Shown in pieces: positions 15,798 to 52,014 of a stretch of DNA of 64,000 nt. A model generated the notes under the pieces. The model was not told the DNA's origin. It saw only the letters and a program-made list of their open reading frames with translations, and made no database searches. Made by a program: the position numbers and the translations under genes. This DNA comes from Selenomonadaceae bacterium. Its GTDB lineage: Bacteria > Bacillota > Negativicutes > Selenomonadales > Selenomonadaceae. The stretch's first letter is position 1. Every line of letters begins with the position of its first letter. The stretch is from positions 1 through 64,000 of the forward strand of contig JAUNIB010000011.1 in NCBI GenBank assembly GCA_030523645.1, written 5' to 3'.

Positions 15798-16169
15798 CTA
15801 TAGAGAAATATCTATCAGGGAGCCTCTTGCAATATCAAGATTTTTGCTCTGACGGCGCAGCTCCTCTACCTCAGCCAGTATCCGGGCTGCCTCGTCCTCT
15901 CCGTCCTCGCCTTCCCGACGATGACGTTTTCCGCCCTGTCCGCCGCCCTGTCGTCGTTCCCTCTCCGGGTCGTCCTTGATTTTTCCGTCTTCGGCTTCTT
16001 CATGCCGCCGGACGGTACGCTGATTCACCTCATCGGTTTCCCGCTGCTTAGCCAGCTGATTGTCCTGCTGAGCGTTTACCTGATGATGTATATTCTGTTG
16101 GAGCTGACTTACCTCGGTAGATTTCGGAACCATCAGTTGCAGGTTCATTGGGTTGAAATCCACGGCCAT
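15798..16169 (-). CDS. Small polar flagellar-operon protein of unknown function
   Basis: 123 residues, charged and Gln-rich, with no membrane helix. The N-terminus NPMNLQLMVPKSTEVSQLQQ resembles small proteins found after FapA-like genes in other Firmicute fla operons; the middle is Gln/Glu/Arg-rich with a RRQGGGQGGKRHRREG basic stretch; the end (EDEAARILAEVEELRRQSK) should be a helix. The ATG at 16169 has AAGGGAG upstream. I do not recognise a function. Codon use is like its neighbours. Confidence 0.65.
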   Translation of the reverse strand: MAVDFNPMNLQLMVPKSTEVSQLQQNIHHQVNAQQDNQLAKQRETDEVNQRTVRRHEEAEDGKIKDDPERERRQGGGQGGKRHRREGEDGEDEAARILAEVEELRRQSKNLDIARGSLIDISL

Positions 16170-16189
16170 TGTAATCACTCCCTTAATAT

Positions 16190-16328
16190 CTCGTGAATAA
16201 GCTCTGTTAGAAAACCGTTTATCTGCGCCGGTACTTAGCGACCTGCAAGCAAGCCTGCGTAGCAGGAGCTTAGTACCGCTGCGCAGATAACCGAGCGAGA
16301 GCGCGTTTTCGTCAGAGCTTATCACGAG
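16190..16328. repeat. Structured 139-bp dispersed element, copy 1
   Basis: The ends CTCGTGAATAAGCTCTG and CAGAGCTTATCACGAG are inverted copies of each other (one bulged base). Inside are nested complementary arms: ATCTGCG/CGCAGAT, CGGTAC/GTACCG and CCTGC/GCAGG. Bases 16201-16320 align without gaps to the reverse complement of 50401-50520, with about 24 mismatches in 120. A third, more distant copy is at 58035-58164. It lies between the FapA-like gene and the small unknown gene. Confidence 0.75.
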
Positions 16329-49750: not shown

Positions 49751-50182
49751 TCAGCCGTTGCTGGTAATTACGGATTTCACATCGGAAATGTAGTTGCTGA
49801 GAGAACGGGTCATTGCCTGATAGTACAGTTGATTCTCAGACAGGTGAGCCATTTCCTCATCGATGTCCACATTGTTCCGGTCGGTACGCATGGTGGTTTC
49901 GGTATGGAGCTTCACAGTAGGCACAGCCCTGACCGGGCCCTCTTCCTTGGGACCGAGATGTTTCTCATTGGTGCGAGCCAGCTTCAGCTTGCCTTCCCTG
50001 TCCTTCCGGGGACCCATAAGCTCCTGAGCAAGCATATCTTCAAAGAGAACCTCGCTCTTCTTGAATTCAGGAGTGTTTACATTTGCAATATTGTTTGCAA
50101 TGACACTCTGCCTGAGAGATGCAGCCTCAAGCCCACGGCCGAGGTAATGCATGGACGGTGAATTAAATATTTGTTCCAGCAT
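49751..50182 (-). CDS. flgB: Flagellar rod protein FlgB
   Basis: 143 residues. Proximal rod protein and first gene of the fla/che operon. Signature RQSVIANNIANVNTPEFKKS at residues 24-43 and the C-terminal ENQLYYQAMTRSLSNYISDV. The ATG is preceded by ACGGGAGAGAAAAAG. A SigA promoter lies about 85 bases upstream. Confidence 0.95.
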   Translation of the reverse strand: MLEQIFNSPSMHYLGRGLEAASLRQSVIANNIANVNTPEFKKSEVLFEDMLAQELMGPRKDREGKLKLARTNEKHLGPKEEGPVRAVPTVKLHTETTMRTDRNNVDIDEEMAHLSENQLYYQAMTRSLSNYISDVKSVITSNG

Positions 50183-50264
50183 CTTTTTCTCTCCCGTAAA
50201 AAATTAATCACTATTACCTATTTCAAAAAAGGGTATAGCTATCCACACTCTTACATTCTGCCTA

Positions 50265-50293
50265 ATAATACCATAAATTAAACAAGATGAAAA
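50265..50293 (-). promoter_or_regulatory. SigA-type promoter of the fla/che operon
   Basis: On the minus strand TTTTCA (50288-50293), a 17-base spacer and TATTAT (50265-50270), leaving a leader of about 80 bases before flgB. The gap 50183-50610 otherwise holds two direct repeats, a structured element and a hairpin; no gene is seen. Confidence 0.6.
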
Positions 50294-50294
50294 G

Positions 50295-50350
50295 TATTTT
50301 TGTCTCATAGTTCCCTGTGAATGTAGGGGACAAAAGTCTATTTTTGTCTC
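50295..50350 (-). promoter_or_regulatory. Paired 12-base direct repeats upstream of the fla/che promoter
   Basis: GAGACAAAAATA occurs perfectly at 50295-50306 and 50339-50350, 44 bases apart (about four helix turns) and in the same orientation. The near copy is next to the -35. Related GGGACA and TGTCCC words lie between and upstream. This is a candidate binding site for a regulator. Confidence 0.5.
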
Positions 50351-50390
50351 AAATTTCGCAACCATTGTCCCATGCAGTAAAAAAATACGA

Positions 50391-50536
50391 AGCTGTGAAA
50401 AAATTCTGACTAAAACACTCTCTCGCTCATTTATCTGCGCAACAGTACTAAACTCTTGCTTCGTATGCTTACTTGCAGGTTGCCAATCACCGACGCAGAT
50501 AAACGGTTTTCCTACAGACATTTTTTCTTCGCAGCT
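50391..50536 (-). repeat. Structured dispersed element, copy 2
   Basis: Read on the minus strand it matches the plus strand of 16190-16328 without gaps over 120 bases (about 80 percent). Its ends AGCTGCGAAGAAAA... and ...CTGTGAAAAAATTC pair imperfectly, and differ from the ends of the other two copies. It lies between hslU and the fla/che promoter. Confidence 0.75.
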
Positions 50537-50547
50537 GTATAGAGGAA

Positions 50548-50587
50548 GGGCCTGTGAAAAAATGAATACTCATTTTTTCACAGGCCC
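50548..50587 (-). terminator. Long perfect hairpin after hslU
   Basis: An 18-bp perfect stem, GGGCCTGTGAAAAAATGA with its complement, and a 4-base loop, 24 bases past the hslU stop (50611). The stem has no long T-run after it, but its A/T-rich upper part resembles bidirectional terminators. It probably separates hslVU from the flagellar operon. Confidence 0.7.
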
Positions 50588-50610
50588 TCGTTTACTATGC
50601 TCCGCTGATT

Positions 50611-52014
50611 TTACAGTATAAAACGACTCAGGTCGGAGTCAACTGTAATATCCTTCAGCTTGGATTCAACATATCCGGCGTTAATCACTATATTTTTGTC
50701 TGCCAGGTCCGGTGCATCGAAGGACAGCTCCTCCAGCAGCTTTTCCAGCAGCGTGTGGAGACGGCGGGCGCCGATATTCTCGGTGTGGTTATTCACATCC
50801 TCAGCCATCCTGGCCAGCCGTTCAATAGCGTCATCGGTAAACTCTACTGTTACACCCTCGGTGGCAAGCAGTGCTGCATACTGCTTGATAAGTGCGTTCC
50901 GCGGCTCCGTGAGGATACGGATGAAGTCGTCCTTCTTCAGCGAGTCCAGCTCTACCCGGATGGGAAATCGTCCCTGCAGCTCCGGAATGAGGTCACTGGG
51001 CTTCGAAACATGGAAGGCACCTGCCGCAATAAAGAGAACATGGTCGGTCTTCACCGGGCCGTATTTCGTTGCCACAGTACTGCCCTCGACGATGGGCAGA
51101 ATGTCACGCTGTACACCTTCACGGCTCACATCTGCACCGCCGGTGCCGCTCTTTGCCGCTACCTTGTCTATTTCATCGATGAAAACAATGCCGCTCTGCT
51201 CTGCCTGCTTGATGGCGATCTCGATTACATTGTCCATATCGATAAGCTTGTCGGCCTCTTCCTGTCGAAATATCTTTCGAGCCTGAGCTACGGTAACCTT
51301 CTTGTTCTTCTTTTTCTTAGGCACCAGCTTGCCCAGCATATCCTGCAGATCTTCGCCCATGCCGTCAAGATTTGGGCCGGCGAACATTCCCATCATCTGA
51401 GGCATTTCCTGCTTTTCCAGCTTAACCTCGATGAGTTCGTCCTCCAGCTCGCCCTTTTCCAACCGCTTCTTCACGAAGGCCCGACCGGCGCTAAGCTTCC
51501 GCTCCGGCTCCGGCTTAGGTGCCTCGTCATTGTCGACACCGCCGGCAAAGGCATCCATCATCTTTGCGAAGGGATTTGCTGTCGTTTCGTTATTCTTTGA
51601 TTCCGGCACAAGGGCGTCGATAATCCGCTCCTCGGCCAGCTCCTTTGCCTTCTCCTCTACTTCCTCAAGGCGGCGCTTGCGGACATTGCGGACGGCTTCA
51701 TGGGCAAGGTCGCGGACGATGCTGTCCACATCACGGCCCACATAGCCAACCTCGGTGAACTTGGTAGCCTCTACCTTTACGAAAGGAGCATCCACCAGCT
51801 TCGCCAGACGTCGGGCAATCTCAGTCTTGCCTACACCAGTGCTGCCGATCATGAGGATATTCTTGGGGATAATATCCTCCTTCATGGACTCCTCCAGATG
51901 AGCAGCCCGCCAGCGGTTACGGAGGGCAATGGCCACAGATTTCTTCGCCTCGGCCTGCCCTACTATATATTTATCCAGCTCGGCAACAATCTGCCGGGGA
52001 GTAAGCTCTGTCAT
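50611..52014 (-). CDS. hslU: ATP-dependent protease ATPase subunit HslU (ClpY)
   Basis: 467 residues. AAA+ unfoldase that feeds the HslV peptidase. N-terminus [19 protein letters not shown], Walker A in [15 protein letters not shown], pore motif [11 protein letters not shown] (from about residue 89), Walker B in [11 protein letters not shown] and sensor [19 protein letters not shown] are all present; the C-terminal DSDLSRFIL tail inserts into HslV. The I-domain insert (about 130-230) is charged. The ATG has AGGAGA upstream; 2 bases from hslV. Confidence 0.97.

Follow-up and report, generated by a model that had tools for sequence, protein, structure and literature searches.

Upstream of the flagellar (fla/che) operon of a Schwartzia-type member of the Selenomonadaceae, an exact 12-base direct repeat stands beside the promoter, and this raises the question of which element in the control region is the likely operator of the operon. 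Within the literature covered by an open library, we found no paper on how the flagellar operon is switched on, or on a flagellar operator, in the Selenomonadaceae. The first-pass annotation of this DNA had taken the repeat for a two-site operator of a master regulator acting on the whole operon. Our analysis tells a useful palindromic element apart from this eye-catching, non-conserved exact repeat.

The flgB control region in Schwartzia

The DNA analysed here (the window) is a 64,000-nt stretch on contig C7 of a 2.3-Mb source genome of Schwartzia type (Selenomonadaceae). Its nearest relative among the genomes compared was the MAG Schwartzia sp. RGIG250, with 92% identity of FlgB, and this one Schwartzia genome is the congener in all comparisons below. 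Reading along the minus strand, one passes from genes resembling hslV and hslU (named by eye) through a terminator-like hairpin, an interspersed repeat, and the control region into the flagellar operon, which starts with flgB (49751–50182, minus strand), a gene with FlgB relatives in 143 of the 151 family genomes. The upstream neighbour of flgB was hslU in both Schwartzia genomes, codY being absent there (window 50183–50610); a codY-like C-terminal end was recognised by eye on the gene directly upstream of flgB in many relatives. The interspersed repeat (~200 bp; 50391–50589, minus strand) begins with the terminator-like hairpin and stops just upstream of the palindromic site A described below. 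Its 174-base query gave 42 matches in the genome, its predicted RNA fold was strong (z −6.2), no Rfam family reached the threshold, and it was missing from the flgB upstream region of the congener. A second copy at 16203–16316 lies within an ORF (15798–16325) for which no Pfam match was found.

The promoter of the operon consists of a TTTTCA −35 hexamer (50288–50293, minus strand), a 17-bp spacer, and an extended −10, TGG-TATTAT (50265–50273, minus strand; hexamer TATTAT at 50265–50270), with a 9/12 match for the two hexamers and a 4/6 match of the −35 to TTGACA. Alignment with the congener showed complete retention of both hexamers (6/6 each), together with 16 of 17 spacer bases and 74 of 82 leader bases. 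Two palindromic sites were found farther upstream. Site B, ATAGAC-TTTT-GTCCCC (50326–50341, minus strand), is the candidate operator core and is centred ~63 bp upstream of the −10; the operator-like site A, TGGGACAATGGTTGCG (50357–50372, minus strand), lies ~31 bp upstream of site B. Both sites kept 15 of 17 bases in the congener (50325–50341 for site B and 50357–50373 for site A). By eye, site A also suggested a sigma-54-like element (TGGGAC..TTGC), an idea dropped because the GG was absent in the congener.

Palindromic sites upstream of flgB across the family

Site B agrees with the palindrome TGGGAC-N4-GTCCCA at 8 of 12 positions, and related sites were present at flgB of other genera. For the survey we collected 109 flgB upstream regions, comprising 29 of 30 loci (one cut locus was dropped) and further sets of 60 and 20, all from the Selenomonadaceae; a genome search at the order level also returned genomes of this same family only. 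Of the 109 regions, 65 had an extended −10 fitting TGnTAnnAT, and the other 44 were set aside. The 65 regions contained 32 palindromes close to GGGAC-N4-GTCCC (at least 7/10), compared to a mean of 5.5 and a maximum of 12 in shuffled sequences, and 12 of the palindromes had a distance of precisely 67 bp to the −10, against a shuffle maximum of 2. Because the motif had first been spotted by eye, 9216 palindromes were enumerated. Ranking normalised to the background of the individual word along the region put TGGGA-N6-TCCCA in first place and GGGAC-N4-GTCCC in third, each at a distance of 67 bp, with Poisson values that are too small because related genomes are treated as independent; by raw counts, which are dominated by AT-rich words, GGGAC-N4 ranked only 141 of 9216. 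A symmetric matrix fitted to 88 regions, and seeded with our own guess, reached 9.2 bits compared to 6.9–8.0 bits in 20 shuffled sets. Sites matching at 8/12 or better were present in 34 of the 65 regions, representing 12 genera, and the other 31 regions lacked such a site.

The distance of these sites from the −10 fell into two groups that differed by one helical turn, mostly 66–69 bp in genera g4, g5, g7, and g21, and 55–57 bp in g11, g13, g20, g23, g25, and g29, with outlying distances of 70 bp for one site in g27 and 63 bp in g1 (Schwartzia). When one genome per genus was counted, 9.25 of 20 genera had a site at 55–57 or 66–69 bp, whereas 1000 shuffled sets averaged 0.16 and never exceeded 2. 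Shifting the distance windows by 3–5 bp either way left 0–1.1 genera; shifts by 10 bp still gave 4.7 and 2.1 genera, because one window was moved onto the other. Preferred distances one turn apart, characteristic of class I sites, were thus found for the family and hold only approximately at this locus. In the two Schwartzia genomes site B stands 63 bp from the −10, which is 4 bp less than in the 67-bp group and 6 bp more than in the 57-bp group, so the genus-thinned position test receives no help from g1. Given this position off both preferred distances and a match of only 8/12, the assignment of site B to the family-wide pattern is where the argument is weakest.

A weak −35, the other class I characteristic considered, was likewise observed: the mean match to TTGACA was 2.65/6 in the 34 site-bearing promoters compared to 3.16 in the 31 others (4/6 in the window itself), which resembles, by analogy, the poor −35 boxes of activator-dependent promoters. 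The region appears operator-like since members of the family retain, at phased positions in front of flgB, a palindrome related to the words singled out by the first-pass annotation. To that extent the proposed operator for the whole fla/che operon is supported, with the palindrome taking the place of the exact repeat.

The sequence itself documents the site and its retention within the family, as well as the two distances one turn apart and the poor −35 boxes. With a probability of roughly 60%, we read them as a class-I-type activator operator that controls the flagellar operon, in which site B, with site A upstream of it, would represent the palindrome TGGGAC-N4-GTCCCA. A dimeric DNA-binding protein would occupy this palindrome and, in keeping with general knowledge of class I activation, would activate from upstream of the weak −35 and the extended −10; the operator would then govern the entire fla/che operon. 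Binding of the palindrome by a repressor or a nucleoid-type protein instead of an activator appears rather unlikely. Palindromes of the 5-4-5 type serve repressors too, and the site in the window lies off the phased positions, but repressor sites usually overlap the promoter, whereas the flgB sites stand clear of the −35 on its upstream side, in two distance classes that differ by a single helical turn, and the promoters bearing them have poor −35 boxes.

The exact repeat and the words around it

The repeated 12-mer GAGACAAAAATA indeed occurs exactly twice in the window, each time on the minus strand (50295–50306 and 50339–50350). Inspection extended the identical word to 13 bp, TGAGACAAAAATA. 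Its near copy (50295–50307, minus strand) ends one base upstream of TTTTCA, which bears out the reported adjacency to the −35, and its far copy (50339–50351, minus strand) overlaps site B by 3 bases. The GGGACA/TGTCCC-like words noticed around the repeat were also recovered, as four RGACAAW words on both strands within 94 bp (50288–50381), a density reached in none of 5000 shuffles. Site A and the two 12-mers jointly supply these words. The congener carried two such words (17 of 5000 shuffles), and each of 107 regions outside the genus carried at most one.

These data bear on another reading, in which the two identical 12-mers form a tandem operator holding two protein units on one helix face. 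The exact 13-bp identity of two copies 44 bp apart and adjoining the −35 argues for it, and 2000 shuffles of the intergenic region produced an exact, non-overlapping 12-mer direct repeat only 7–10 times. The repeat is locally unusual, yet not unique within the window, since 10 of 638 window tiles of 200 bp also carry one. The 44-bp spacing between the starts of the copies was confirmed; it corresponds to 4.2 turns, which makes the claimed helical phasing only rough. More importantly, in the congener each copy retained 9 of its 12 bases, compared to 15 of 17 for sites A and B. Since the congener keeps the promoter but alters 3 of 12 bases in each copy, the exact repeat does not appear to be the functional unit, contrary to the two-site operator and to the conservation of the repeat expected in a close relative with the same promoter. 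The 12-mer was present in 1 of 89 flgB upstream regions, which was the window's own, and exact 12-mer repeats of any kind in 4 of 109, and we consider the tandem operator unlikely. The genome-wide search for the 12-mer upstream of other motility genes, suggested in the first-pass annotation, yielded three copies, two of them here and the sole third one inside a proC-like ORF (named by eye), and the exact 12-mer was dropped as a regulon word.

Both copies may be better explained by the palindrome. The TGAGAC contained in each 12-mer differs from TGGGAC by a single base, and the 12-mers are probably best read as extra half-sites of the same operator, which may have been gained and partly lost within the genus. 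The activator operator would thereby have a form elaborated in Schwartzia, with site B displaced by 4 bp towards the −10 relative to the 67-bp genera, and with the 12-mers and site A as surrounding half-site words. The identity of the 12-mers would be a lineage-specific by-product of reiterated half-sites, and not the conserved feature. That the inverted repeats act as hairpins in RNA or single-stranded DNA is very unlikely: inverted repeats with 4-base loops could fold, and a strong terminator-like hairpin does lie upstream, but the stems are merely 5–6 bp and mismatched, their distance from the −10 is fixed, in steps of one helical turn, and no Rfam family reached the threshold in 49900–50700.

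Possible targets, candidate regulators, and known systems

The core word GGACWWWWGTC had six matches at five places in the window's genome compared to 12 for the reversed control, and is thus not enriched genome-wide. The five places were flgB, a chemotaxis-receptor gene (75 bp upstream), the upstream region of an O-acetylhomoserine sulfhydrylase-like gene (by eye), a position ~0.29 kb ahead of the gene encoding a protein with a cNMP-binding domain, and a transposase-like ORF (by eye). The receptor-gene word, GGACTTTTGTCC (G000:C6:72283–72296), is a perfect 12-bp palindrome that nearly matches site B; the gene it precedes by 75 bp encodes a methyl-accepting chemotaxis protein. In the scanned stretch, 2 of 11 receptor genes had a palindrome of at least 8/10; the good one is ~41 bp from its −10 (hand count), which differs from the geometry at flgB. 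A motility regulon beyond flgB is suggested at most. The loose pattern GGGACN4GTCCC with two mismatches proved useless (628 matches per strand compared to 1038 in the control). In 13 genomes, a pattern built from the flgB sites of g7 and g29 matched 7 times, with 5 of the matches at flgB, and in 20 genomes a g21-type pattern matched 8 times, with 4 at flgB, counts that are biased because the patterns derive from flgB sites. The few matches away from flgB speak against many other equally good sites in these genomes. With neither an enriched core word nor more than a few close matches elsewhere, the wide regulon implied by the term master regulator finds no backing.

A Pfam scan of nine window proteins showed a flagellar cluster with no DNA-binding regulator except a sigma factor. 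In the family, PF13545 scored above the cut-off in 122 of 151 genomes. PF00027 was scanned in 11 genomes, and frames of 231–375 aa were taken as CRP-sized. Such frames scored above the cut-off in G000, G021, G072, G093, and G035, and none did in G001, G005, G067, G105, G012, or G078, several of the scanned genomes being draft or incomplete. A CRP protein is disfavoured by G105, a draft genome that has a 10/12 site and no CRP-sized frame. The single CRP-type candidate of Schwartzia (C9:531159) contains both Pfam domains and has relatives of 65–67% in g21; we found nothing linking it to flagella, and a CRP/FNR-like protein as the regulator is a lead only, drawn by analogy. As separate observations, a conserved protein of ~700 aa whose N-terminal part weakly matches a cNMP-binding domain is encoded at G000:C13:98300–101700, and this cNMP-type protein was present in g1, g5, g7, and g21 and absent from the two g12 genomes scanned; the word ~0.29 kb upstream of the cNMP-binding-domain protein gene in the window's genome (707-aa frame) is GGACAAAAGTC.

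As a tentative extension of the activator reading, the Selenomonadaceae may possess a dedicated, so far undescribed flagellar activator that acts mainly at one promoter, through TGGGAC-N4-GTCCCA at flgB, with the operator of Schwartzia rebuilt as four half-sites that include the two 12-mers. The conserved candidate operator can serve as bait for finding the flagellar regulator.

Among known systems, CodY was considered, as several relatives have a codY-like C-terminus (by eye) immediately before flgB; the CodY box, with the consensus AATTTTCWGAAAATT, had no match with up to three mismatches in the flgB upstream region and three elsewhere in the window. The Spo0A box, TTTGTCRAA, shares TTTGTC with the element described here; at up to one mismatch it gave 21 matches in the window, near the chance mean of 20.7, and none in the flgB upstream region. 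The class I sites of CRP and FNR are TGTGA-N6-TCACA and TTGAT-N4-ATCAA, respectively. The flgB palindrome resembles them in its two-fold symmetric 5-4-5 architecture with a GA core in the half-site, as well as in lying upstream of the −35 with distances that differ by one helical turn, and the CRP-type word TGTGA-N6-TCACA itself also peaks at 67 bp in the flgB upstream regions (rank 13 of 9216). It differs from them in the half-site TGGGAC, which is neither consensus, and its distances from the −10 are ~3 bp off the classical E. coli positions. As far as its sequence can be compared, the operator-like element before the fla/che operon is of a kind known elsewhere.
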